Assembly: GCA_029834535.1 (NCBI GenBank)
Contig: JAQMWT010000675.1
Location: 279,169-343,168 of the forward strand
Source of the DNA: Chrysophaeum taylorii
Lineage: Eukaryota > Sar > Pelagophyceae > Pelagomonadales > Pelagomonadaceae
Reading direction: 5' to 3'
DNA length: 64,000 nt
Shown here: piece after piece, positions 2,238-62,306 of the stretch
Numbering within the stretch: position 1 is the stretch's first letter
Layout: the number at the start of each line of letters is the position of its first letter
Notes under the pieces: generated by a model
The model's input: the letters and a program-made list of their open reading frames with translations, nothing else
What the model was told of the DNA's origin: nothing
The model's database searches: none
Made by a program: the position numbers and the translations under genes

Positions 2238-3454
2238 TTCTACTAGCAGAGCGATTTATCGATCTGATGGCATCGGATCGATATAGATCTGATGGCAGTA
2301 TCGGATCGGATCAGTCGATCGATTTGCACCTCTAAGTAAATGCAGAAAGGGCGGCATCGGACACATCGGACATTTCAGTACAATCAACAACCATAGTGAG
2401 AACAGCACTGACCAACAGGGACTCTTAGCAGTCGACCTTTAAAGACCTCCAGAGCGCTACACTATAATGTGTACGACACTGGCATTCCCTACTCCTTCTT
2501 TCACACTTCTTCTTCTACTTGAGGGTTTTCTCTTCGTAATACGGCTTTTTCCCTCTCCTACCTTACCCTTCCGCAATTACTTATTTCATGACTATGAAGA
2601 ATTAGTCCGAAGCTCTCTTCCAACAAGGAGTGCAAACGAAAATGTAGATTTCCGGCATAACGTATAGGCCTCTGTGGCAGTAACGCCCATTCCCCGCGCT
2701 TGCCTGCCTGCCACCTGACTTACCCTGATTGTTGCTTTGGTGCTGACCTTGCAATTATGGGGGGGAGTGTCATCTTGACATCCTCACCTGTACTCCCACG
2801 AAACCCAATGTACCAGGCATTTGTATTGCTTTCTTCCTGTCTTCTTGCTATTACCCTCATTTTGATTGTCCGATTTCGTGATGCCGTGAGGTGTTTACGC
2901 TGAGATCGGGCGTGTGGTGGTTTCACCCGCGGTTCGGGTTGGGAGAAAGGGTTGTTGAGGCCCCTGGTCCGGCCAAGAGGGGCGGGTATCCGAGAGAAAA
3001 ACCACTACAGTGGTCTCAGAAACGGGAATCGATAGTCCAACTCCCGGACTATCGATCTCCTGTTTTTCGGCGGCGAGTCGGTTCGTAACGATCGAGTGAG
3101 TGCGAAGCCGACGCATTTGCGAGTGAAGATCCAGGGGATCACGGGTACCGCCGCGGGGTTCATTTTACGTGATTCGGATCGAACGGAGAGCGGAGTCACT
3201 ACGACTCATTATGGCAACAAACATAAGCCCCAACCTAGCTCGCGCGAGGCTGACCACCTCCCTGACGGCGAGCGACAGCACCGGGAAGACCGTCCATAGT
3301 CTTCACGCGCAAGTTAAAATACTTCCGTGAGACCAGCGCACCGGTACCAGCGCGCAGTCAGACGGCTGCCGGCAATTGTCGTCAGACGAAAAAAAATACA
3401 ACAAGTGAGTTGTGAGCGTTCGGATTAATCCTATTATCCGGGCAAAGCGCGGTC
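2238..3454. other. Intergenic DNA and presumed 5' end of the left retroelement
   Basis: No convincing gene. From about 2255 to 2330 the sequence is a degenerate run of GATCGAT/GATCTGATGGC/GGATCG units. From about 2690 to 2890 it is T-rich and AT-richer than the genes. From about 2890 to 3400 it becomes GC-richer and probably holds the leader (and possibly an LTR) of the retroelement. I could not find a matching copy of this stretch elsewhere in the window, so no LTR can be claimed. Confidence 0.5.
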
Positions 3455-6400
3455 ATGGCAGAGAGGCCAATGACAGAACGACCGCAGTGGTTTCGGGACG
3501 CACAGGAGCGTCTGCAACGATTCAGTGCAGCGACTCCGCTTTCGTATATTGGAAGAACACCGTTGAGTATGCCCTTTCAACGGCCGGAAGCCGAGGAAAG
3601 CGGCATCAGAAGAGAGGCAAGGTCATCGGACAGCCTCGACAACCCCCCAAGCGTGATAATCCTTCCGGATCCACGCGCTGGCGAAGGGGGAGCTACGGTT
3701 GCGCCAGACGCAACTTCAAGACCGGGTGAGCCGACGTTCCCGCACGCACGACCCTACGAACGTGCGATGAATACTACGGAGCCATCTCGAGCGGAACCCG
3801 GACCGTTTACGGCGATGCGTGGACCAGAGGAGAGTACACCTCCTAGCCACCATCCGCGAATACGAGAGCGACAGATTTTCGCGTGGATACCGACCCCGAG
3901 ATTCTGCAGACCATCAACGAACGATTCGAAATGTACCAGTCGCAGATCGAGCAAGTCATACGTGAACTTGAGCGCACCCGCCGCGACGCGCAACAACGAC
4001 GCTCAGAAGTGGAGCGGCAGCGGATCGACAACGACCGACTTCGACGAATGGTGGAGGAATCCACGCGGGCGCATGCTCGAGAGGCACGGCCAGCCTCTCC
4101 GGATGCTACGCGTGTTACGCCCGAAGAAGATGACGCTGCATCGGCACTGACCGACGATCAGCCACCGCGAAGTCGACCGGAGCCTACCCCGCAGCATCAT
4201 ACTGACCCGGGTTCAGCACATCCTCGTAACGAAGAAGATAAGCTTCGGGTCAAGAAGGGAGCTGCTGGTATGACTCGTATCACGTTTTCGAATCTCAGTG
4301 GGCAAATTACGAAGGACCGGGTGGAGGTGAATGCGTGGTGGATGCAATTGCAGCGTAAGATGGAAGGCGAGATCATGCCGCATGAAGGATGTGTGAACAT
4401 GCAGCTAGAAGCCACTGAGGACGATTGTCATGCGACTCTCACGGCTGCTGTTGACGAGAATGAAGTCGAGGAGGATGTCTTGAGTGACAGTCCTCCTCCT
4501 CAGCCACCTCCAGATGAAGAAGTGAAAAAAAAACACCAGAAATGGAGATGGAGGCGACTGATAAGGACCTGCTATCTAAGCACGCCTCCTTGGTTTGGAT
4601 ACCCATCACCTACACCTTTGTCGTCGTCTACTTTGCTGGCGCTGGAGGATCAACGTTGGGTATCCGGCGATGCAATGAGCTATATGGCAGTTCATTTCGC
4701 ATTGTCCTGGCTTTGGATGCTTGTCCTCAAGCCCGAGCCACCTTTGAGCTCAATTTTCCGAAGATTCCCTATGTTTTGCATGAGATGGGGAAATCTCATC
4801 GTCGTACATACGACTTGGTGTTGTCGTATTTACACTCAGATTTTTGGAAGCACTCTTATTTTCACGCCAGTCCGCCGTGTATCTATGGATCGACTGCCAA
4901 TTTGCGCTACAGGGACGCACGCAAGGGCGCTACTATTACTTCTTGGGTCCTGCGTCATTTCCGCAACGCACCTTATGTGATTGGACGATGGACGCTCGAG
5001 CAGGAACCATCAGTGATCCCTTTTGTGCTTCACCAATTTTATGTGCCGCGTATTGTTGATTTCTATAGTATCACGCCAGAGCTGCTGTGCTCGCGCACGC
5101 GCCTACTTGCTTGCAGTGTTCGCTTGGAACTGCCGTTATTATCGCGTGTACCACCGAATTTACGGGACCGTTTTGGCCCAGCGTTGGGATTTACAGGTGG
5201 TCACCCGCTCATTATAGTGAACAGTTTCTCATCTACGCGCCCGGCTATCGGCCCTGCCTTTACGGTGACGCGCAATAAGCTCCGCTTAGGACCTCATTTC
5301 TCGAACACCCGTCCACTCACTTTGCAGATGCACCAGGAAATTATGACCGTTCCTGCTACGTGGCAATGGGGTGCAACAGTTTACGAGACAGTAGCTATGA
5401 AGATGCTTGGCAGTATGGTGCCACCCGCGACTATGACGCGGATTGCGCTAGCAGTGCACAATTCGTTTGAACCTTCACTTCGAAATTTGGGTAAGTTGCG
5501 GAATATTGCGACGACTACTCTAGCCCAACCTGATCACCATATTCTACGGTTTTCACCTTTTGTTGTAGAGTCGCGCATTCCAACGCTCGACCCTGCCACT
5601 CGAAGTGTATCATGGATTGCGCCCGATGAACTCTATTCTCCTGCGAGTCCTGCACCATCCGCTGCTGCCACCACCACCCCGCCACCGCCTTCAGTTACAT
5701 CGCCTGGGACGGCTTCATCTTTTGCAGGGGGCACCGTCGCCAATGCTGTTATGCAGAGCAACCAAGTTGATAACCAGCCCTCCGCAACTGCTGAAGAAGA
5801 AGGCACCGCGAAAGAGCGACCAGCGTATTTCAATACGTACGACGTTCTGTGGGCGGACGCGCCTCACGACGAATATGGTCAACCTTCACCGGTGATGCCT
5901 CCTCATTTAGCGGATCAGGAGAGCATGCAGGTCATCCCTCCGACCGTCGCGCAGGTCGAAGAGGCGATGACTGAATTGGGTAATACAGAGCATCCTGCCT
6001 TAGATGATGACGAGAAGCTGATGATGAAGCATTTAATCTCGTATTCGTGGGCATTTTTCGATGATGTGATGAGACCTGTTGATTCACCTGAAGTGACGCT
6101 CCGGTTCAAAGAAGAGAACCCGACTCCCGTCAAACTCTCGCCATATCGGTTGTCGAAAGAAAAGACTGAATGTTTGCGGATGCAGATTGAAGCATGGACC
6201 CGAGACGGAGTTATTCGTCCCGCGAATTCTCCATGGGGTTTCCCTATTTTGATGTTGCCTAAGAAAGGTGCTGAGCCTGGCACTTCCAATGCTTACAGAG
6301 CAGCTGTCGACCTACGGAGCCTCAATGCATTGCTCAAGGATGATAGCTGGCCGAGTGTGAGCATGACTGACGCGTTGATGTTTCTCATTGACAAGTTTTG

Positions 6401-6918
6401 TCGTTCCAGTTTGGATATTCGTTGGGGCTATCACAATTTACGATTGTCGCTGGATGCACAAGATGTGGTCACCTTCACTAGTCCTCTGGGAGCGTACAGC
6501 TACATGCGTCTACCTTTGGGAGTCAAACCAGCCGAAAGTTTGTTTTGCAAGGAGTTGAACATTGACTTGTCGCAATGGCTATATCGTGACCTCGTGGCAT
6601 ATATCGACGATATTCTCGCCGGTCACGCAGATACAAAGAATCACTTGCAGTGCCTTGTGCAAGTTATTCCCCATCTCGCCTTGAAGGGGTACAGCGCCAA
6701 GATCAAGAAGATTCATTTTATGCAAGAAGTTATTGAGTTTTTGGGTCATTTATCTACCCCGAACGGACTTCTTCCATCACCAAGATCTTTAGAAGCTATC
6801 AGACACATGCCAATTCCTGGCACTTTGTCAGATGCTGACCCTAAGAAGCAAGTGCGATCTTTCCTTGGAATGGGGAGCTTTTGCCGGCGTTATGTAAGGA
6901 ATTTTGCGAACCTTACCC
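3400..6918 (+). mobile_element. Left Ty3/gypsy-type retroelement carrying a cytosine methyltransferase, 3'-truncated
   Basis: A retroelement fragment in the order gag-like region, C5-cytosine methyltransferase domain, reverse transcriptase. It stops abruptly after the RT thumb/connection (coding ...CRRYVRNFANLT) at 6918, where the inverted repeat of a DNA transposon begins. RNase H, integrase and a 3' LTR are therefore absent, and no continuation is visible right of that transposon (14233 onward). No protease is recognisable between gag and DNMT, which suggests an internal deletion. Base composition is clearly less GC-rich than that of neighbouring host genes. The left boundary is approximate. 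The right-hand copy (56.2-63.5 kb) shows what the missing 3' part should contain. Confidence 0.8.
3455..4530 (+). pseudogene. Gag-like region of the left retroelement (frame-shifted)
   Basis: Two overlapping frames together make a gag-like protein. The first starts at ATG 3455 (MAERPMTERPQW...) and reads sensibly to about 3870. The second carries on from about 3883 with a strong coiled coil rich in Gln, Arg and Glu (INERFEMYQSQIEQV...), then a segment with an N-A-W-W pattern at about 4255-4400 reminiscent of the retrotransposon gag core. It ends in an acidic, Pro-rich linker just before the methyltransferase. The jump of frame near 3870-3885 is either a disabling indel or a programmed shift; I favour decay because the rest of the element is also truncated. 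No zinc knuckle (CCHC) is visible. Identification rests on position upstream of the enzymes plus the coiled coil, not on clear homology. Confidence 0.5.
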
Positions 6919-6962
6919 TGATCGCCGACCGCATGGTTGCGATGGAGGACGGTGCCTCATGA
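4542..6962 (+). CDS. Fused C5-cytosine DNA methyltransferase-reverse transcriptase polyprotein (Ty3/gypsy-type)
   Basis: One open frame of 806 codons. Residues ~30-310 look like a C5-cytosine DNA methyltransferase: motif I FAGAGGSTLGI (SAM binding), motif II VLALDAC, motif IV ASPPC with the catalytic Cys, a Glu in LEQEPS standing for motif VI, motif VIII-like CSRTRLL, motif IX-like RPLTLQMHQEIMTVP, and motif X-like GSMVPP in place of GNxVPP. A Pro/Thr/Ser-rich linker (~360-420) leads to a Ty3/gypsy reverse transcriptase (~470-790) with GVIRPANSPWGFP, AAVDLRSLN, LPLGVKPA and the catalytic YIDD box, then the LGH...TPNG and FLGMGSFCRRYV landmarks. The last ~15 codons lie inside the inverted repeat of the adjoining DNA transposon, so the C-terminus is artificial. 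No stop interrupts DNMT or RT. The expected role is to methylate DNA, perhaps the element's own copies; activity is unproven. Confidence 0.85.
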   Translation: MEMEATDKDLLSKHASLVWIPITYTFVVVYFAGAGGSTLGIRRCNELYGSSFRIVLALDACPQARATFELNFPKIPYVLHEMGKSHRRTYDLVLSYLHSDFWKHSYFHASPPCIYGSTANLRYRDARKGATITSWVLRHFRNAPYVIGRWTLEQEPSVIPFVLHQFYVPRIVDFYSITPELLCSRTRLLACSVRLELPLLSRVPPNLRDRFGPALGFTGGHPLIIVNSFSSTRPAIGPAFTVTRNKLRLGPHFSNTRPLTLQMHQEIMTVPATWQWGATVYETVAMKMLGSMVPPATMTRIALAVHNSFEPSLRNLGKLRNIATTTLAQPDHHILRFSPFVVESRIPTLDPATRSVSWIAPDELYSPASPAPSAAATTTPPPPSVTSPGTASSFAGGTVANAVMQSNQVDNQPSATAEEEGTAKERPAYFNTYDVLWADAPHDEYGQPSPVMPPHLADQESMQVIPPTVAQVEEAMTELGNTEHPALDDDEKLMMKHLISYSWAFFDDVMRPVDSPEVTLRFKEENPTPVKLSPYRLSKEKTECLRMQIEAWTRDGVIRPANSPWGFPILMLPKKGAEPGTSNAYRAAVDLRSLNALLKDDSWPSVSMTDALMFLIDKFCRSSLDIRWGYHNLRLSLDAQDVVTFTSPLGAYSYMRLPLGVKPAESLFCKELNIDLSQWLYRDLVAYIDDILAGHADTKNHLQCLVQVIPHLALKGYSAKIKKIHFMQEVIEFLGHLSTPNGLLPSPRSLEAIRHMPIPGTLSDADPKKQVRSFLGMGSFCRRYVRNFANLTLIADRMVAMEDGAS

Positions 6963-7173
6963 ATCCTGAGCCTTGCGAGGGCATCCGCCCTCCCGGCGTA
7001 GGTTGGCACCTAATCGCCTCTCGGGCGGGCCGGTTGGCAGCCGGAACGTTCGCAGTGGGACGGGGTATGGCCGGGGGGCGCAGACGGAAGGTTATCGACG
7101 AGTTGGTTGTCAGTCACATCGCGGTCTCCTCGTCGCATGGCGACAAGTTTGATGGTCACTCTCCGCCGACCGA
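6919..7173 (+). repeat. Left terminal inverted repeat of the MULE
   Basis: About 255 bp that match the reverse complement of 13977-14232 with scattered substitutions and small indels. The shared outer tip is TGATCGCCGACC, and the shared core includes GAGGGCATCCGCCCTCCC and GACGAGTTGGTTGTC. Similarity fades after about 7173. Confidence 0.9.
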
Positions 7174-9600: not shown

Positions 9601-9734
9601 CTCTCATCCGTCGAGAACATCTAGCTCAAGTCATCCTAGCGCTCTTGGGAAACGAGGAGAGGAACGCGGTATCAGCGGTGTCTTGCGCAGGTCTTGTTTG
9701 TGGCTGTTGTCCTGCGAGGAGGTGCATGTGTGTG

Positions 9735-9945
9735 ATCAAACTTGTAATGTTCTGACCAAACTTTGTGACAAAACTTGTGACTGTATGACCAAACGTGTGA
9801 CTTTATGACCAAACTTTTGACTTGGTGACCAAACTTGTGACTTAATGATCAAACTTATGTTCGTGTGATCAAACTTTGTGATTAAACTTGTAGCTTTCTG
9901 ATCAAACTCTTTTGGTTTCGTGACCACACTTGAAAATCGTAGCTT
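9735..9945 (+). repeat. GACCAAACTT motif cluster 2 (tandem, ~20-bp period)
   Basis: About eleven imperfect units with core TGA(C/T)CAAACTTGTGAC spaced roughly 18-21 bp apart, all in one orientation. The cluster separates the zinc-finger coding part from the catalytic part of the transposase gene and therefore sits in an intron or a decayed insertion. Spacing and unit length do not suit a CRISPR array. Confidence 0.75.
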
Positions 9946-53766: not shown

Positions 53767-54627
53767 TCAGGCGGAGACAGGCTGGACGATGTTCTTGACG
53801 CCTTCTTCGGCAATGGCTGTCGCCTTTGGATCTTCGAAGCGGATGATGCGAAAAAACGAGTCCGGGACAAGGCTCGCGCCGCCGACGAGGACGCCGTCGA
53901 TGTCGGGCATGCTCATGATGTCGTCGACCGAGGCGGGCGAGACGGAGCCGCCGTATAAGACGCGGACGTTAGCGGCGATGTCCTCGTCGTAGATGGCTGC
54001 GAGGCAGGTGCGGATGGCGGCGTGGGTGTCCTGCGCCACCTCGGGCTCGCAGACCAAGCCCGTGCCAATGGCCCAAACCGGCTCGTAGGCGATGACGACG
54101 CGGTCCATAAGTGCCGCGTCTATACCCGCGAGGGCTTTTGAAAGTTGCACGTTGCAGATGTCGACGGTAATGCCCTGGTCGCGCTCGTCGCGCGTCTCGC
54201 CGATGCAGAGCATGCAGGTCACGTCATCCAGGGCTAGGGTTTGTTTGACTTTTGCGGCGACGACGTCGTCGTCGTCGCCAAAGAAGACCCGCCGTTCGCT
54301 GTGTCCCACGAGGACTGTCTTGATGCCGAGAGCTGCGATCATCGGGCCGCTCACTTCGCCCGTGAAGGCCCCTTTGGTGTCGAGGTGGCAAATATCCTGA
54401 CTCCCGACCTTGTCGCCGCCGAGGACAGAGGTGACAGCGTGGGCGAAGGGGAAGGGGGGGAACACGATTACGTCGCGGGCTTCGTGCGCCGCGAGCGATG
54501 ACGCCAGCTCGGTCGCCTCCGCGAGGCTTCCGGGATTCATTTTCCAGTTCCCCGCGACCAGGGTCTTCCGTAGCATCGGCACCTCGACGGCGACCGCCGA
54601 GGCCGCGATTAAAACGAGCATCACCAC
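53767..54627 (-). CDS. TPI: Triosephosphate isomerase with an N-terminal signal-like leader
   Basis: Interconverts dihydroxyacetone phosphate and glyceraldehyde 3-phosphate. 286 residues: a hydrophobic leader MVMLVLIAASAVAVEVP, then the complete TIM barrel. Catalytic residues are all visible: Lys in VAGNWKMNPGS, His in VLVGHSERRVFF, Glu in IAYEPVWAIGTG (the AIGTG phosphate loop), and the closing NVRVLYGGSVSP and DGVLVGGASL phosphate-binding segments. The leader resembles a signal peptide, so I infer entry into the secretory route or a complex plastid or other compartment; a cytosolic form from the internal Met just before LRKTLVAGNW is possible. No intron is visible. A TATATAG box lies ~65 bp upstream of the start. 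Confidence 0.95.
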   Translation of the reverse strand: MVMLVLIAASAVAVEVPMLRKTLVAGNWKMNPGSLAEATELASSLAAHEARDVIVFPPFPFAHAVTSVLGGDKVGSQDICHLDTKGAFTGEVSGPMIAALGIKTVLVGHSERRVFFGDDDDVVAAKVKQTLALDDVTCMLCIGETRDERDQGITVDICNVQLSKALAGIDAALMDRVVIAYEPVWAIGTGLVCEPEVAQDTHAAIRTCLAAIYDEDIAANVRVLYGGSVSPASVDDIMSMPDIDGVLVGGASLVPDSFFRIIRFEDPKATAIAEEGVKNIVQPVSA

Positions 54628-54690
54628 TACTTCCGGCCACGTCAGCTTCTGACTCAGACGTCACCCCTGACGCTCCTACATTTTGATTCC

Positions 54691-54878: not shown

Positions 54879-55790
54879 CTAGGTCCGGCGGCGGCGGCGG
54901 CGTTTGGCGAGCACGAGAAGGCCGAGGAGGGTGGTGGCCAGGAGGAAACGACGCCAGCGGCGTTTTGGGGTGCGGTGATTCTCATGACTACCAACGTAGC
55001 AGAGAAAGTGGCCAGGCGTGTCGCCCGCGCACAAGGGGCGATCGAGGGCTTTGGTCACAGCCTCCTTTGCCTCTTCGAGGGCGAGGGCGGCGCGTCGTTT
55101 GGAGAACAAGCAGGGCAGCGGAATCAAGCGACGATGGTTTTTAAATACAATCGAGCAGACTTGGACGCCGTCCGCAAACTTGGCCGGCGAGAGCACGAGC
55201 CAGCGTTCGAGGTTCCAGTCGGCGTGGGCAATCTGGAGGAGCCTCGTATTAACGCGAGCGCCGCGGACGCCCGCGGGGTCCGTAAACCCGGCCAAATCCC
55301 AGAACAAGTGGTCTCCTCGCTTTTTCGGGCGGAAAATGCCCGGGAAGGCGCCCGAGGCCTGGCACGCCGAGGCGAGGTTGCCGCGGTCGATCGTGACGCT
55401 CCGAAAGGTTCGAAGATCGAAGGCCGTCGTCGCAAACGGGATGTCGCAGTCCTCGAACGTCTTGCCCGCGCCCCATACCCTCTCGAGGAGATCCTCGATG
55501 TGTCCGTGCTTCATCCACGCCGCGCGAAATATGTCCTTAAACCCCGCGTTCTTGAGCTCCGTGGCAGCCTTGTCGAGGGAGACGTGTTTTTGCGCGATGA
55601 TGGCCGCGATCTTGGCGCCAGAGGAGGCCCCCGAGACAGCCGTCACGCGCTCGCGGAGCCCGCCCTCAAACGCTTCGTCGAGCGCGATCACGGCGCCCAG
55701 CGAGGCGCTCTCGCACAGCAGCCCCTGGGACACAGCGACGGCGAACTTCTCCTCGCACAACCACTCGCGTAATGTTGTCGTCGTCGTCAT
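54879..55790 (-). CDS. Patatin-like phospholipase with C-terminal membrane anchor
   Basis: 303 residues if started at ATG 55790 (MTTTTTLREWLCEEK); the frame is open further upstream to 56009, but that part has no family similarity. N-terminal SQGLLCESASLGAVIALDEA takes the place of the Gly-rich oxyanion segment, with few Gly, so the oxyanion hole is atypical. Nucleophile elbow VSGASSGAKIAA (GxSxG). Later TTAFDLRTFRSVTI and ASGAFPGIFRP are typical of patatins. The catalytic Asp is probably in LFWDLAGFTD (DxG/A motif). A C-terminal hydrophobic segment (FLLATTLLGLLVLA) followed by Arg gives a tail anchor. It probably acts as a lipid acyl hydrolase on membranes; the substrate is unknown. It lies 251 bp upstream of TPI on the same strand. 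Confidence 0.78.
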   Translation of the reverse strand: MTTTTTLREWLCEEKFAVAVSQGLLCESASLGAVIALDEAFEGGLRERVTAVSGASSGAKIAAIIAQKHVSLDKAATELKNAGFKDIFRAAWMKHGHIEDLLERVWGAGKTFEDCDIPFATTAFDLRTFRSVTIDRGNLASACQASGAFPGIFRPKKRGDHLFWDLAGFTDPAGVRGARVNTRLLQIAHADWNLERWLVLSPAKFADGVQVCSIVFKNHRRLIPLPCLFSKRRAALALEEAKEAVTKALDRPLCAGDTPGHFLCYVGSHENHRTPKRRWRRFLLATTLLGLLVLAKRRRRRRT

Positions 55791-56265
55791 CCCGAAGTTA
55801 GTTCCCGGAATCTTTTTGTCGCAGGGAAAGAAAGAGAGTGGGAATCTGGAAGAATGAAGGGGGTCGAAGCACGGAGGGACATGTGGCGTAAGGAGAGTTT
55901 TAGGGGCTACCTGGCGTGCCATCGAATCCTGGCTCGCCGCTCGCGTCCGTGCCCTTGGTGGGGTCACTGGACGAGGATGGCCGTTCTCCCGCCACACGAC
56001 CACAAACAACTTCCGTGCCTGGTCCTCACAACTTGAGGATCGGCTGTTGCTTTATGATCAAGGTATATCGACGAAACACAGAAATCAGGGTGACGCATGT
56101 CACGGAAAAGGAAGATGATGTCATAGAGAACACTGGCATCATCAGAACGGAGTAGTAGGGTGCCCCTGATAAGGGGGGCCCTAGAAGAGGGGTAAGCCTT
56201 AGGGGTAGCGGAAGTTGCCGCCACAGGACCCCCCTGGTAAGAATTCGAGCTGCCCCAGCGAGGTG
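55791..56265. other. Intergenic / left end of the right-hand retroelement
   Basis: On the minus strand the integrase stop is followed by CCAGGGGGGTCCTGTGG (~56221-56238). This looks like a polypurine tract before a TG-starting 3' LTR that would extend left toward ~55900. No second LTR copy is recognisable in the window, so the LTR remains unproven. Confidence 0.35.
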
Positions 56266-58778
56266 CTAGCGCGAGGAGCGCAGCTTCGCCTTACGAGCAT
56301 CTCGTGAACGAATCTTCTGGTAAACACGGGTGATGATCGGTTCAGGAACTCGACCACTGCGTAAAGTAAACTTGGGGATCAACACATCAATCTCGTGCGG
56401 AGCGAAATCCGTGACACAAGGAGTTGTGTTGGAGGAAATTCGGGACTTGTCGGTGAAACTTCGACCTTCAACGTCCTTGAACTCGGGCTTGAGCTTTTTG
56501 CGGTGCGAAAGGTGAGAGGTCGGCTTGAAATAAGCGACATCATCGTTCGGACCCAAATCAGAATAGAAATGTAGAGCAACACGATCATTTTGGTAATCGT
56601 AAGGCTCGTAAACTTCAGCAACATAAATCTTCTTGCGCCAATCAGAGCGCTTCCGGTCGGGAATCCGGAAAACAATAAACTTACCGTGCTGATAATCATC
56701 ACGGAAGGTTTCTTCGGGTTTGCGGATGGCTTGATCAATGATCGGAGGTACCATCACAGGCGTGATCTGACTAACAGGAACACGTCGTTCTTCGGGCGGA
56801 GAGTCGAGAGACTCAATCCTATAGGTGACCGGGGAAAGGCGTTCCTTGATAATAAACGGCCCTCGCCATTCCGGTCGAAGTTTGTTCTGAAGGAAAGGAA
56901 TGTAGAGCAAAACGTGCGATCCTTCCTTGTATTCAACATCAACATGATGAGCATTGTAAGCCAATCGTTGTTTCTTTAAAGCTTTATCACGAGCCTCGCG
57001 GACGATCTTCGTATAATATTTCAATCGTTCACGAGTTTCGGCGACTGCATCAGAGCGAGTCTTCGGCAATAATCGCGGATCAAAGTCCATAAGCGTGTAG
57101 TCAGTCGGTAGCATCGGCTGACGGTTCAGGCGCAGCATAAAGGGAGAAATCTGCGTGCCTGGAATAAACTTGCGGTCGTAGCAAAACGCAATATAATGAG
57201 CAAAGTCAGGCCAATCCGTAATGTTCCGGCCCTGAAGGCAAGCACGGAGGAAGGCCTTGATAAATCGGTTGACACGCTCAGCCGGGTTCGACTGGGCATG
57301 ATAGGGAATCGTAGTTTGGTATCGTGTGTTGAAGAGATGGCAAAACTCGCGCATCAACTTGTTCACGAACTCTTTACCGTTGTCGGTACGAATCATTTGG
57401 GGCAAGTAGCCCTTGAGGAGAATGTTAATGACAAAAGACTCTCGAGGACAGACTAAGCAGTCTTATCGTTCAAAACATCCAGAATCAAGAAATGCGAGAA
57501 CGGATCAAAAAATACTAGAAGATACGTCTCGGGACCAGCGCTGGGCAAGGGTCCAAATAAATCCATGCAGAGAACAGCACCATCACCATCGTAGACGGGC
57601 TGCTGCAAGAGTCCAGCTCGTTTCGGCTCAGGCGTACGAGCTTCCTGGCAAACTAAACATTCAGCAATGAAGACTCCAACTTCATTCGACATGTGAGGCC
57701 ACCAAAATCGTTCTTGGATAGCCTGGACGGTACTGTGACGTCCCATATGACCACCGTTAACCGGAGTGTCATGGTAGAGTCGAATAATGCGCTTGCGCAA
57801 CGTAGCAGGTGCAACAATCATCGGGTGCAAATCAGTAGAAATGCGGTAAAGAACGTCTTTAACGACTTCGAATCGTTCGTTCGCTCGGGAACGTCGCGGC
57901 GTCTGACCTTGGGCCATTCGGTAGCGAATATCCTCGCAAGTAGCATCAGATTCTTGCTCACGTGCGATCTCAGCGAGCGTTATATTATCGGGTATCTTAT
58001 CGATATAATCTTTGTAAGCGGCTGCGTCCTTGAAGACCTGTGGCTCATCGTGCGCACGGTTCTTCCGACGTTGTCTCGTAGCGTGAGACGTAGCCAATTT
58101 CATCGGATCCTTTTCAGGATCTTCTTCCTCGTCTTCCGGCAGTTCGGTCGTAATAAACGACATTATGAAGTGGCAGCCGGGGGCGGGAACTCCTCGGTCA
58201 TCAACAGGTCGGGGAAGCTCTTGGAACACTAAATACGCGTGGTTCAAAGGTTCTCCAAACTCGTCAGTCTCGATGACATGATCTATCGGGTTGCGGGAGA
58301 GACAGCCAGGGATACTCATTCCCGGTGACTTTCCCGGCTTGTAACCAAGTTCAGGGTCAAAATTGGCGAGGCGCATCGCCCAACGAGCAAGCTGCCCAGA
58401 CGAGTGCGTCGCCTTACGTAAAAACGTCAAATTTCGGTGATCGGTCTCCAAAACAGTACGGTACCCTTCGATGTAGGCTCGAAAGTGCTCTAGAGAAAGT
58501 ATAACTGCCAGCAGCTCTAGCCGACGGGGCTCATAATTCCGCATCTCCTTCGGCACAGCTCGGCTCCAATATTCAATCACTCGTTCTTCTCGAGTCACTC
58601 TTCCGGCATCGTCCTTGACTTCGACAATCTGGAAGAGATATGCTCCAAGTCCATCCTTGGGAGCATCGGATCGGATCTGAAAAGGCAGATCATAATCGGG
58701 GTGGTAGACTCCTCTGGAATCAACCAGAGCTTCAATAATCGTATCCCAGGCTTTCTGACACTCGGGCGTCCACTCGAA
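56266..58778 (-). pseudogene. RNase H and integrase part of the retroelement polyprotein
   Basis: RNase H begins just after the TAG at 58779: FEWTPECQKAW, FQIRSDAPKDGLGAYLFQ (first acidic residue), LELLAVILSLEHF (Glu) and VLETDHRNLTFL (Asp). After a linker comes an integrase with an H2C2-like zinc domain (LYHDTPVNGGHMGRHS ... ECLVCQEAR), the first catalytic Asp in CMDLFGPLP, then after a TAG stop (57453-57455) and a one-base shift the second Asp in MIRTDNGKEF and the Glu in QSNPAERVNRFI. The C-terminal domain has WRGPFIIKERLSPVTYRIES, the GPY/F-type motif of gypsy integrases. No chromodomain is visible; the tail is basic. It would copy and insert the element if intact; it is inactive here. 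Confidence 0.85.
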
Positions 58779-59882
58779 CTATACACCTTCGAGGCATAAT
58801 CGTCTCAGCGGTTCCACGATCTTCGAGTAGCCCTTCACAAATCGCCGGCAGTAATTACTCATGCCGATGAAAGAGCGTATCTGGGTCTTCGGGGAAGTAT
58901 TCGGCAAAGTACCTGGAATCGGCATCTTCTGCAGTGCTTCCAGCGTCTTCGGATTCGGCTTCAAGCCTTCTGGGGTAGAAATGTGTCCCAGAAACTCTAT
59001 ATCATCCTTGAGAAGGTGGAACTTCGCGGTTCGACCGCTGTACCCTCTCTGTGCCAAATGACACATCACTTCGATCAAAACTCGTAAGTGTCGATGAAGA
59101 TCGTCGGATCCCATCATAATATCGTCAACAAACGCAACCAAGTTTTGATACATCCATTTCGAAAGGCCACTCGCCATTTGCTTGCAGAAAAGAACTCCGG
59201 CCGTCTTCACACCTAGAGGTAATCGCAAGAAACTATGAGCGCCAAGTGGGCTAACCATCGTGACAGCGTCCTGCGCTGCCGGATCCAAACGAAGGTTGTG
59301 GTATCCCCATCTAATATCGATGCATGTCCGCCATCGTCTCATGGCGAGAAAAGCTAAAGCATCATCTTGTCGAATGTTCGGCCAACTGTTATTGACCAAT
59401 TGATCGTTGAGCTGACGTAAGTCAACTGCAGCACGGAACGCGTTTGACGTTCCAATCTCAGCTCCTTTCTTTGGAAGCATCAACACAGGAAAGCCCCAAG
59501 GTGAGTTGGCCGGACGAATGACTCCATCCCGGCACCACTCGCTGATCTGCTTGCGGAGACAATCGAGCTTCGCAGGCGTCAATCGGTAGGGCGTCATCTT
59601 TATCGGTCGCGGATTCGCGTCTTTGAATCGTAGAGACACAGGAGGTGAGTCCACAGGTCTCATAATCGGGTCGAAAAAGGCCCAAGAATATTGCGCACAG
59701 TGACGGAGCATCAGTTTCGCATCGTCATCTAAGTGCGGATTGTCAGGAATTCCCAGCTCCTGCACAACCTTGTCTTCCTTCGTGGGAACTTGAACTTTCA
59801 TAGCTTCATTATCCTTGACATGCTCGGGAATTTGCGGCAGCGGTGCACCCTCAGCATCGCGCGGCGCATCTTTCCATGGCAC
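58779..59882 (-). CDS. Reverse transcriptase domain of the right retroelement
   Basis: About 365 codons open. The RT core runs from PVSLRFKDANPRPIKMTPYR through GVIRPANSPWGFPVLMLPKK, FRAAVDLRQLND, WGYHNLRLDPAAQDAVTMVS, LPLGVKTAGVLFCKQM, the catalytic FVDD in NLVAFVDDIMMG (the left element has YIDD), IEFLGHISTPEGLKPNPKT and RSFIGMSNYCRRFVKG. The reading frame overlaps the methyltransferase frame by ~85 bp in another phase, whereas in the left element the two are in one frame, so one indel in this copy separates them. It ends at TAG directly before RNase H. Confidence 0.9.
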   Translation of the reverse strand: MPWKDAPRDAEGAPLPQIPEHVKDNEAMKVQVPTKEDKVVQELGIPDNPHLDDDAKLMLRHCAQYSWAFFDPIMRPVDSPPVSLRFKDANPRPIKMTPYRLTPAKLDCLRKQISEWCRDGVIRPANSPWGFPVLMLPKKGAEIGTSNAFRAAVDLRQLNDQLVNNSWPNIRQDDALAFLAMRRWRTCIDIRWGYHNLRLDPAAQDAVTMVSPLGAHSFLRLPLGVKTAGVLFCKQMASGLSKWMYQNLVAFVDDIMMGSDDLHRHLRVLIEVMCHLAQRGYSGRTAKFHLLKDDIEFLGHISTPEGLKPNPKTLEALQKMPIPGTLPNTSPKTQIRSFIGMSNYCRRFVKGYSKIVEPLRRLCLEGV

Positions 59883-61129
59883 ATCGAACTTTTCTCATAT
59901 TTTAGCCTCACTTCCGGGTGGCTTTTGTTGATCCTCTCGCCTTTGACACGAACACTCGGCTCGCTCTTAATCTTCGGTTCCTGATCTCGCTCAGGATCTG
60001 GCGGAACGTCCAAATTTGGTTGTCGGGGGGGGGCAGCAGAAGAAGCATGAGACGTCCCCGGCTCATCTGTTGCAGGCGGAATCAACGGTACCTCTGGAGG
60101 TTTCCATTTGGTGTGATCTTGGAGATCATCAGTCGACACCCATCTGACGACACGTGTGCGCGTGTTTAACAGCGGAACTTGTACGTGACGTAGGGTGGTT
60201 TCATCAATTTGCAAATAATAATCAAACGGTCGGTCTGCAGGACTCAACGCTGACGGCAAAGCTTCGCCGCTCAGGTGAAAATCCTTGGTCACAGAGTTGT
60301 GCAGATCGAGTACTAATAAGGTCATCGTGTCTGGTGGCACGACGGACGCCAAGTGTTTCAACGAGGTCGTCCTGGAGAAGCCAGCCCAATCAAAATCAAG
60401 GGGCATCGTCAGCAACTCCGAAGTCATTTTCAGATTCAGAGATTTGTAATCGGAATGGTGCGGTCCTACGCGAAGCGGGACACGCGCAACGGTGTAAGCT
60501 GCGTCTGTCGCGGCTCGTGATGTTCCTAAATTGTTCATCTGAAGTAAATGTCGTTCGTCGGCGTAGCCAAGTGCTGCGGCGAACTCTTGCTGCATATTCT
60601 TGCAAGTCTTTGGAACTGCGCGCAAATGGAGCGGATGGCTGGAAACCAACAATCGCACGCGACAGCTCATCAAACTGGGAGTTATGTCGTAAAAATTGAC
60701 GACGTACACGTAAGGGTGCAAACGTGCAACGTAAGAAATAATCGAAGCCTCCTGCTCTATCAACCACATGAAGAAACCAGCCATCTTGCATAATTTCATC
60801 GTCCAGTGGGTAGCGGTGACTCCTTTCCCAACATCTCTGGAGGTCAAGTTGCACAGAGCGGAGTGTACGCAGGGTGGCGACGCGACACACATCGACGACG
60901 ACCATTCCGCGTAGGGTAAATAAGATTCGATCAACCGTAAGGTTGTAACATAGCGACCACACAGTGTGTGCTGCACCACAGGAATGTTCGGAAAATTCTT
61001 ATGGTGGATCTGGTTGGCTGTGTCCGACGCATCGAGTGCTAGCACGACTCGAAACGACGTCCCACACGTTTCGTTGGCTTGTTGGAGACCTAAAGTACTG
61101 CCTCCGGCTCCACTGAACAGCATCACCAC
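59798..61129 (-). CDS. C5-cytosine DNA methyltransferase domain of the right retroelement
   Basis: About 443 codons open. Motif I MLFSGAGGSTLGLQQA, motif II VVLALDASD, motif IV VASPPCVHSAL with the catalytic Cys, motif VI-like Glu in LIEQEASII, motif VIII-like SCRVRLLVSS, motif IX-like LKMTSELLTMPLDF and motif X-like LASVVPPDTM. These are in the same order and spacing as in the left element, though the sequence between motifs differs widely (for example SPPCIYGST versus SPPCVHSAL). The target-recognition part between VIII and IX is short, so the enzyme is compact and lacks any regulatory domain of host DNMTs. The C-terminal ~90 codons are a Pro/Glu-rich linker. The frame upstream of the first Met continues in another phase (61.0-61.6 kb), indicating one more indel. 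Confidence 0.85.
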   Translation of the reverse strand: MVMLFSGAGGSTLGLQQANETCGTSFRVVLALDASDTANQIHHKNFPNIPVVQHTLCGRYVTTLRLIESYLPYAEWSSSMCVASPPCVHSALCNLTSRDVGKGVTATHWTMKLCKMAGFFMWLIEQEASIISYVARLHPYVYVVNFYDITPSLMSCRVRLLVSSHPLHLRAVPKTCKNMQQEFAAALGYADERHLLQMNNLGTSRAATDAAYTVARVPLRVGPHHSDYKSLNLKMTSELLTMPLDFDWAGFSRTTSLKHLASVVPPDTMTLLVLDLHNSVTKDFHLSGEALPSALSPADRPFDYYLQIDETTLRHVQVPLLNTRTRVVRWVSTDDLQDHTKWKPPEVPLIPPATDEPGTSHASSAAPPRQPNLDVPPDPERDQEPKIKSEPSVRVKGERINKSHPEVRLKYEKSSMCHGKMRRAMLRVHRCRKFPSMSRIMKL

Positions 61130-61438
61130 CTTGCGATAAGTGATTGGAAGCTATTGAACCTTTCGTATCGGCGGCGGATCTCCGCTTCGGTGATCTCGCG
61201 GCATTTCTTTCATCTTCTTCCGACCTTCGAGCGAAATCGTCGCTGCCTTCGGGTCGTTTGAGGGTGGACTTGTCCGCAACAGCGGTCGTAGCGTCCTTCT
61301 GCACCGTGCTCAGCAGCATCGGCGGGGGAGATTCGTCGCATCGCGTCAAGTGACTAGCGACAGAAACGGTGAAAGAAAGGTTCCCCTTGTCGTTTCCTTC
61401 TTCACATTCTTTCGTAAGTTCGTTGATCGTAGAGACGT

Positions 61439-62306
61439 TCAACTCATCTTCGTACCTAACGATACCGCCAATCGCAAGGACTTCGCCTTGAGTGACGACC
61501 GTCGGCACTTCTTCCGCGGCAGTAACCAAAACCGAGCAGCGGACCGGTCGTGCTCTTCGCAAGAAGAACACATTCCTCCGACAACTCCCAACTGCTCGTT
61601 TTCAGCAAACGTAGCGACGAAAACCTTTCCCATTTCCATAGGTTTCGACAAAATAACCGGTAGATTGTAAGCTCGACCGGGCTCATTTGAAGCGTGCGCG
61701 CGCAAAGCAACTACTTCCTGCTCGGCTTCTCCCGGAGCTGGGGAGAATTTTGTCGTAGCATGTCCCCGCGTAGCCAAGGCTACCGTACGTTCCGGCGGCG
61801 GGCTTCGGAGATCTTTAATCGTGCTCAAACGAGTGTAAACTCGAGTCTTGACCAGGTCGAGACTCTTCCGAAAGGCATCGTGTTGATGATTGTAAATCGG
61901 TACGGTTATCGGATCTCGATGGTAAATAGATCGAAAGGTTACGATGGGTGCATCGACTCGTTCATCCTTAACTTTAATCTCTTGCGCCCGTAGACGACTT
62001 GGGTTCGATAAAAACAGATCCGATCGTGGGATAGTCCACGACGGCTCCTAAAACTCGTATATCGCGCCCTCCCAACAGGAACAGATAGTTAGTATCGGCT
62101 ACAGTAGCGACAATGGGGGCGCGATGGTCGTCGGCGAGGGCGACCCGAATCGCGATCCAACGATAGATCGTCGTCGTATTCAACCCTGATCCGTACAGCT
62201 TGCGCTTAATCGGAAGTTCGCCTTCATCGAAAATCAACTGATCTTTGGCAAACTTTGTGACCATTTCTCGGCAAATATAAGAAAACATCTGCCATTCCAT
62301 CGACAC
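61439..62306 (-). pseudogene. Protease-like and pre-DNMT region of the right retroelement
   Basis: The piece at 61974-62306 ends with TVADTNYLFLLGGRDIRVLG then AVVDYPTIGSVFIE, similar to the C-terminal half of Ty3-type retropepsins (the 'LLG.D.L...gavvDy' part). The expected DTG/DSG active-site motif is not clear, so it may be damaged or in a shifted frame. The following stretch toward the methyltransferase (61439-61828) is open but unrecognised, Pro/Glu-rich and Cys-containing (MCSSCEEHD). Confidence 0.45.

Follow-up and report, generated by a model that had tools for sequence, protein, structure and literature searches.

Retrotransposons that carry a cytosine DNA methyltransferase (DNMT) have detailed descriptions for two lineages only in the literature that we searched. 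Klebsormidium is already known to have a gypsy element with a DNMT inside its Pol, and one Symbiodinium genome to have DNMT-carrying elements of two classes (both in PMC5890265). A passage of PMC6338049 lists Ty3/Gypsy and DIRS elements encoding DAM or DCM enzymes, the two not separated, in stramenopiles among other groups, and a passage of PMC12344493 places DNMT3 in 'LTR Copia and DIRS' elements. The stramenopile and the Copia statements could overlap with the elements described here, which we studied starting from a 64,000-nucleotide stretch deposited under Chrysophaeum taylorii (assembly GCA_029834535.1, contig JAQMWT010000675.1, positions 279,169–343,168, forward strand), hereafter the window. 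An earlier interpretation made from the letters alone (the sequence-only reading) had proposed that one uninterrupted frame at window positions 4542–6962 joins a C5 methyltransferase to a Ty3/gypsy reverse transcriptase (RT), and had pointed to DNMT-carrying retrotransposons of dinoflagellates and charophyte algae, correctly so (PMC5890265). We describe the gypsy family of this copy (A1), a second gypsy lineage (A2) and a Ty1/copia family of the same genome, all with DNMTs; L-numbers denote copies fetched from the genome.

A DNMT within a Ty3/gypsy polyprotein

The frame at 4542–6962, on the plus strand like all other features of this copy, is open throughout, encodes 806 amino acids and contains both of the proposed enzymes. 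Pfam matched DNA_methylase (PF00145, E 8.7e-8, 32.4 bits against a cut-off of 22) in two stretches and RVT_1 at residues 573–736 (E 4e-12), and a PDB sequence search placed the RT nearest to Ty3 RT (4ol8 and 7q5b, E about 1e-22). The C5 methyltransferase domain (4623–5531, delimited by PF00145 and motif residues) carries FAGAGGS from residue 31 (4632–4652), ASPPC from residue 109 (4866–4880), LEQEP from residue 152 (4995–5009), SRTRLL from residue 184 (5091–5108) and MVPPAT from residue 292 (5415–5432), which correspond to motifs I, IV, VI, VIII and X. A linker (5532–5951) separates it from the RT domain (6258–6749), which has YIDD from residue 687 (6600–6611). Motifs I, IV, VIII and X and the YIDD thus lie where the sequence-only reading had put them, and the catalytic PC is present in ASPPC; its motif VI glutamate is also there, but within EQE and not EN[V/I].

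The frame is real, but it is a remnant of a polyprotein (DNMT, linker and RT) and not a native gene product. A 5′ long terminal repeat (LTR) at 2672–3010 matches the LTR-bearing ends of L047, L040 and L045 (blastn, 86–92%), relatives that have LTR pairs, and is followed by the N-terminal part of gag at 3416–4373, which aligns with the L047 polyprotein in two broken frames (tblastn, 87–90%) and in which Pfam matched no family over 3455–4150. L047 positions 278–1995 align to window positions 2677–4373 and L047 positions 4598–7130 to window positions 4363–6910, and the two alignments overlap by 11 bp at a deletion junction (4363–4373) where 2.6 kb, comprising the gag C-terminus and the protease position, is gone. 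Homology to the L047 polyprotein extends 5′ of the ATG at 4542 (tblastn), making that ATG internal, and element homology stops at residue 791, so that the final 15 residues (6910–6962) are foreign. Only the 5′ LTR is kept. We rejected the 806-residue frame as a native protein because of the deletion on one side and the missing RNaseH, integrase and 3′ LTR on the other. Judging from these alignments, the window holds a degraded copy from an LTR-bearing Ty3/gypsy family with a predicted C5 DNMT between the protease position and the RT.

A1 matched 68 segments of the 70.8-Mb genome (56 scored of 1689 first-look candidates), and the fusion is therefore not a unique assembly error; this count, the at least 110 matches of A2 and the recurrent DNMT–RT spacing of A2 led us to reject both assembly error and chance fusion. 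In fuller relatives, LTRs surround gag, the protease position, DNMT, RT, RNaseH and integrase in that order. One of them, L041 (contig C311:11000–20999), spans 9.6 kb, including end repeats that match over 177 bp (205–381 and 9647–9823, 96.6% identical), and encodes a gag-like frame and a 2115-residue pol frame with Pfam matches to DNA_methylase, RVT_1, RNaseH, Integrase_H2C2 and rve, the last slightly below the cut-off. In L047, a single frame of 1815 residues runs from gag through the protease position and the DNMT into the beginning of the RT. Plain flanking direct repeats were found in 5 of the 12 stretches fetched (L040, L041, L045, L047 and L049; 91–99% over the matching part), and the remaining stretches were cut, rearranged or without end repeats. 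Pfam matched no protease in the L041 pol frame, where an aspartic protease is assumed from position. Match places and identities were nearly the same on contigs C10 and C297 and on contigs C25 and C521, suggesting that the assembly holds these contigs as duplicates or alleles of each other; because some contigs look like duplicates, copy counts may include alleles.

A second gypsy lineage and a copia family

A second, divergent DNMT-bearing gypsy element, absent from the sequence-only reading, occupies 56266–62279 on the minus strand of the window. Read in its own direction, this A2 copy begins with a segment (62010–62279) that aligns with residues 155–244 of the L041 pol frame (tblastn, 32%) and is a putative protease by its position, Pfam having matched nothing in 61986–62279. 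There follow a C5 methyltransferase at 60032–61150 (PF00145, E 4.9e-5, 23.4 bits against the cut-off of 22) with the strings LFSGAGGSTLG, ASPPC, LIEQEAS, SCRVRLL and VVPPDT; an RT at 58779–59894 (RVT_1, E 7.4e-14); RNaseH and the integrase zinc domain at 57453–58778 (RT_RNaseH, E 1.9e-24; Integrase_H2C2, E 3.5e-18); and, in a different frame from the RNaseH piece, the integrase core and C-terminus at 56266–57462 (rve, E 3.4e-5, below cut-off; 48% to L041). The 5′ LTR probably lies beyond the contig end, which coincides with the window end. Identity between A2 and A1 is 36–39% in the DNMT, and between A2 and L041 it is 54.5% across pol residues 926–1726. The A2 DNMT matches at least 110 places of the genome (110 scored of 1110 candidates); among the 110 listed, 87 are stop-free and at least 50 are separated from an RT by 134–192 bp. 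Because both lineages carry the DNMT at the same place, one capture before the A1/A2 split would be the simplest history.

When the genome was searched exon by exon with PF00145, 57 matches were returned (123 scored of 474 candidates): one DNMT2, one DNMT5 and 55 at places of a Ty1/copia family, with A1 and A2 copies not among them. This family comprises 150 matching segments (144 scored of 651 candidates) and deserves separate study. One frame of 1952 residues in L051 (contig C96:62500–71000) contains DNA_methylase (E 1.1e-7) and RVT_2 (E 1.6e-38) by Pfam; integrase was matched only weakly (rve, E 0.0061, below its cut-off). The copia DNMT, which has the strings LPCQ and VENVPP, sits after the protease position, a place equivalent to that of the gypsy DNMT. 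Pfam matched no protease in this family either; the protease position reads DGGASF in the L051 frame and DGMADSP in the L041 pol frame, each with a DG, where D-[ST]-G is usual in retropepsins. The copia RT has SVDD in L058, L059 and L060 (the last with stops) and SVDG in L051, and no RT frame was seen in stretch L057. Comparison of the gypsy and copia DNMT profiles with hhalign, both profiles being thin, gave no relation (probability 0.1), the copia profile found nothing in the host DNMT2, and a PDB search with the copia DNMT returned no methyltransferase. As far as these comparisons go, the copia DNMT was likely captured separately from the gypsy DNMT.

PDB searches with the gypsy DNMT domains yielded no DNMT3 match and no significant match of any kind; a profile search returned five chains, each a cytosine-specific methyltransferase or DNMT2 and never DNMT3, all at E 0.46–1.8. 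In protein-collection searches, which score only length-matched, word-sharing candidates, the A1 DNMT as a single sequence found no relative among 5.8 billion proteins, and its profile found one marginal C5 methyltransferase, P0002 (E 5.2e-3). Viral contigs contained no relative of the gypsy or the copia DNMT, GTDB genomes contained none of the gypsy DNMT, and hhalign of the gypsy profile with the host DNMT5 gave nothing. P0002 has LFCGAGGSTLG, NFP, SPPC, RxRL and VPP in the same order as the A1 and A2 DNMTs, but it is 22–23% identical to them and its motif VI is ENV. A C5 methyltransferase such as P0002, bacterial-type by our own reading, is a possible kind of donor. GxGG, SPPC, the motif VI glutamate and the motif VIII RxR are invariant across one A1 copy, one A2 copy, P0002 and the host DNMT2. 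Among 16 distinct A1 copies, all keep the catalytic cysteine and 13 keep EQE, with ASPSC in place of ASPPC in one (L044); EQE is present in all five A2 copies read.

Purifying selection on the DNMTs

Ratios of nonsynonymous to synonymous change (dN/dS) were estimated by the Nei–Gojobori method, skipping stop and gap codons. For A1 we relied on five single-frame comparisons between subfamilies (L039, L040 and L044 with L041; L039 and L040 with L042), in which the DNMT gave 0.074–0.090 at dS 1.35–1.50, against 0.51–0.52 for the linker, which served as internal comparison, and 0.034–0.046 for the RT; in the diverged gypsy comparisons dS is near saturation (1.35–1.63 in the DNMT, 1.74–1.97 in the RT), so the exact ratios are soft, but they differ greatly from that of the linker. 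The frameshifted copies L048 and L049 gave DNMT ratios of 0.101 and 0.092, outside this range. The DNMT of the window A2 copy compared with L052–L054 gave 0.063–0.077 at dS 1.5–1.6 over the first 280 columns and 0.24–0.27 over the rest, and less diverged A2 pairs gave 0.063 at dS 0.10, 0.068 at dS 0.24, 0.111 at dS 0.15 and 0.27 at dS 0.03. For copia, 28 copies (19 stop-free in the compared stretch, and including L031, which has stops and was omitted from the copia alignment) provided 367 pairs after omission of 2 undefined and 9 short ones; median dN/dS fell from 0.43 at dS < 0.1 (16 pairs) to 0.16 at dS > 0.6 (165 pairs; range 0.105–0.272), as expected if the DNMT is under selection while elements are active and decays after insertion. 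The DNMTs of diverged copies are under purifying selection, about half as strong as that on the RT by ratio, and on the ratios in A1, A2 and copia we rejected the idea that the DNMT is a degenerate, meaningless remnant. We regard the anatomy and selection described here as very nearly certain.

Synonymous divergence of the linker between A1 subfamilies is only 0.34–0.38, against 1.35–1.97 on either side of it, which might reflect recombination or constraint at the nucleotide level.

The host genome

A form-ID rbcL lies on a 103,599-bp contig (C697) beside rbcS- and cbbX-like pieces; the PDB rubiscos nearest to it are mostly diatom enzymes. Form-ID rbcL together with cbbX indicates a red-lineage plastid, and the host is likely an ochrophyte. 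The plastid fits the 'heterokont-type' genome of the sequence-only reading without proving it. A capture separate from the published ones, as that reading had also suggested, is probable given the red-lineage plastid of the host and the lack of a DNMT3 match to the DNMT domain in the PDB. Host enzymes include a DNMT5 on contig C621 (E 9e-129 to 7r76, a record labelled Rad8 that we take to be Cryptococcus DNMT5) and a DNMT2 on contig C634 (E 7.7e-39), and there is one SRA-domain protein. A DNMT1-RFD search of the host gave no match and was uninformative, as no positive control matched either. DNMT5 has been reported in diatoms and in the pelagophyte Aureococcus (in a passage of PMC3145265); in Cryptococcus it is described as maintenance-only (PMC9246332).

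Outside the elements, a 515-residue frame at 690–2237 on the plus strand, which matches the PAH domain of ZNF598 and contains a glutamate run, lies just 5′ of the A1 LTR, and host genes for a triosephosphate isomerase (53767–54660) and a patatin-like phospholipase (54879–56051), both on the minus strand, adjoin the A2 copy. An Rfam scan of the window gave no match.

A proposed role for the element-borne DNMTs

We consider it probable, from the sequences, that the element-carried DNMT serves to mark the DNA of a new copy as host-like chromatin. The enzyme would be released, or kept with the RT in the particle; it would methylate cytosines in new element DNA or in DNA at the insertion site; and the methylated copy would resemble host chromatin and then be maintained by the host DNMT5. 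That gypsy and copia elements both carry a DNMT in an equivalent place suggests a benefit of the activity to elements that make complementary DNA (cDNA) before insertion. We judge the odds to be about even that the enzyme acts on DNA of the element itself. The sequence-only reading had likewise suggested that the element could methylate its own copies, so as to hide from host silencing or to cooperate with it. A published model for DIRS elements has new cDNA methylated (discussion of PMC5890265), and retrotransposon DNMTs of the SymbioDIRS type carry out de novo CG methylation in yeast (section 10 of the same paper).

Several observations weigh against this proposal. KnitGypsy-Dnmt3, the closest analogue, showed no activity in yeast, a result that its authors call inconclusive (PMC5890265). 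Motif VI is EQE in both gypsy lineages, the asparagine of the usual ENV being replaced by glutamine, and an AlphaFold2 model of the DNMT has a mean predicted local distance difference test score (pLDDT) of 37. Single A1 copies show motif loss or a stop (L045, L044, L046, L008 and L050), frameshifts interrupt the DNMT of L048 and L049, and close A1 pairs have dN/dS of 0.06–0.67 (for example, 0.66 for L039–L046, and 0.67 at dS 0.009 for L041–L042); the high ratios, as expected of decay following insertion, lend the proposal no support. CpG observed/expected is 1.00–1.09 over A1 and copia elements, lower than in the surroundings and not depleted; it is 1.15 in the DNMT stretch of the window A1 copy, 1.27 in the window A2 copy, 1.33 in 12001–56000 and 1.21 in 1–2240. 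TpG and CpA are higher in A1 and copia (1.06–1.19 versus 0.88), and lower CpG with higher TpG and CpA might reflect either slight decay or simply base composition. C/T differences between copies peak at CpT, not CpG, in all three sets; CpG ranks above CpA in every set and above CpC in two of them, coming second in two sets and third in one. Neither composition nor the C/T comparison revealed a clear CpG-decay footprint in the copies, which may mean that damage is repaired efficiently, that methylation falls in a different sequence context or that it does not last.

By context, C/T differences in the A1 DNMT–RT stretch were 0.052 at CpT, 0.034 at CpG, 0.025 at CpC and 0.022 at CpA; those of copia were 0.119 at CpT versus 0.097, 0.077 and 0.058 elsewhere, and whole A1 elements lean slightly the same way.

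The DNMTs might instead act in trans, as the genome's source of de novo cytosine methylation that DNMT5 then maintains, and the methylated surroundings would protect the host from insertions or blunt competing elements. The very many element copies, the SRA protein, the placing of 55 of the 57 PF00145 matches in copia elements with a DNMT2 and a DNMT5 as the others, and a maintenance-only DNMT5 in Cryptococcus would all fit. However, the cited part of PMC9246332 leaves the role of DNMT5 outside Cryptococcus undetermined, an exon-by-exon search with 123 of 474 candidates scored may miss spliced host DNMTs, and CpG is not depleted; we consider action in trans unlikely. Distinctly unlikely, in our estimate, is a bolder possibility: that gypsy and copia elements independently captured two different DNMTs, both at the place following the protease, and that all or most de novo methylation in this genome comes from their several hundred copies, with DNMT5 merely maintaining it. 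Were that true, the epigenome of the host would be written by its parasites.

An RNA substrate, such as the genomic RNA of the element or its transfer RNA (tRNA) primer, would parallel the action of DNMT2 on tRNA, and an RNA target has been raised for SymbioLINE-Dnmt (PMC5890265, in part). DNMT2 is among the few non-significant PDB matches (E 0.04 with A2), and the gypsy profile aligns with the host DNMT2 at E 7.6e-4 (hhalign, probability 25%); these matches are weak, however, those in the PDB span little beyond motif I, and the search of 5.8 billion proteins yielded a single marginal match, to an ordinary bacterial-type C5 methyltransferase, leaving RNA modification improbable. The change from EN to EQ in motif VI, common to both gypsy lineages, would also suit a catalytically silent fold kept as a DNA- or S-adenosylmethionine-binding module for targeting or particle assembly. 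Yet A1 and A2, whose DNMTs are about 38% identical overall, both keep the catalytic cysteine, the motif VI glutamate and the motif VIII RxR, and because binding alone would not need these residues we give a silent fold very little weight.

Methylation of new copy DNA by the element's own enzyme is the reading that we favour. Two LTR superfamilies with constrained DNMTs in one further genome would show that methylating nucleic acid is a repeatable advantage, and a host with DNMT5, an enzyme known for maintenance in Cryptococcus, offers a way to test the source of new methylation in algae.

Comparison with known systems

Like A1, KnitGypsy-Dnmt3 of Klebsormidium nitens has a C5 DNMT inside a gypsy Pol open reading frame, is intronless and multi-copy, and keeps its DNMT under purifying selection, with Ka/Ks below 0.2. 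It differs in that its DNMT is Dnmt3-related, whereas those of A1 and A2 have no DNMT3 match in PDB searches and an EQE motif VI; in its repeats, arranged as in DIRS according to a figure legend, whereas A1 has ordinary LTR pairs; and in its host, a charophyte rather than a red-plastid alga. One DNMT-carrying element type is reported for K. nitens, whereas gypsy and copia both carry DNMTs here (PMC5890265 for K. nitens).

Symbiodinium resembles the present genome in the hundreds of retrotransposon DNMT copies of SymbioDIRS-Dnmt3 and SymbioLINE-Dnmt and in having two classes of element that carry different DNMTs (section 6 of PMC5890265), and SymbioDIRS resembles A1 in having DNMT and RT in one open reading frame; its elements, however, are DIRS and LINE, not Ty3 or Ty1, and its host is a dinoflagellate. 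DIRS elements with Dam-like methylases likewise have a DNA methylase inside a retrotransposon, but these are adenine enzymes structurally unrelated to cytosine DNMTs, carried by tyrosine-recombinase elements (passages of PMC5890265 and PMC6338049).

Our literature search, supplements aside, found no genome in which Ty3 as well as Ty1 elements carry a DNMT, no EQE motif VI and no such elements in a DNMT5-bearing red-plastid alga. As far as we have searched, then, what is new beside the Klebsormidium and Symbiodinium elements is the EQE motif and the presence of DNMTs in two LTR superfamilies of one red-plastid, DNMT5-bearing alga.

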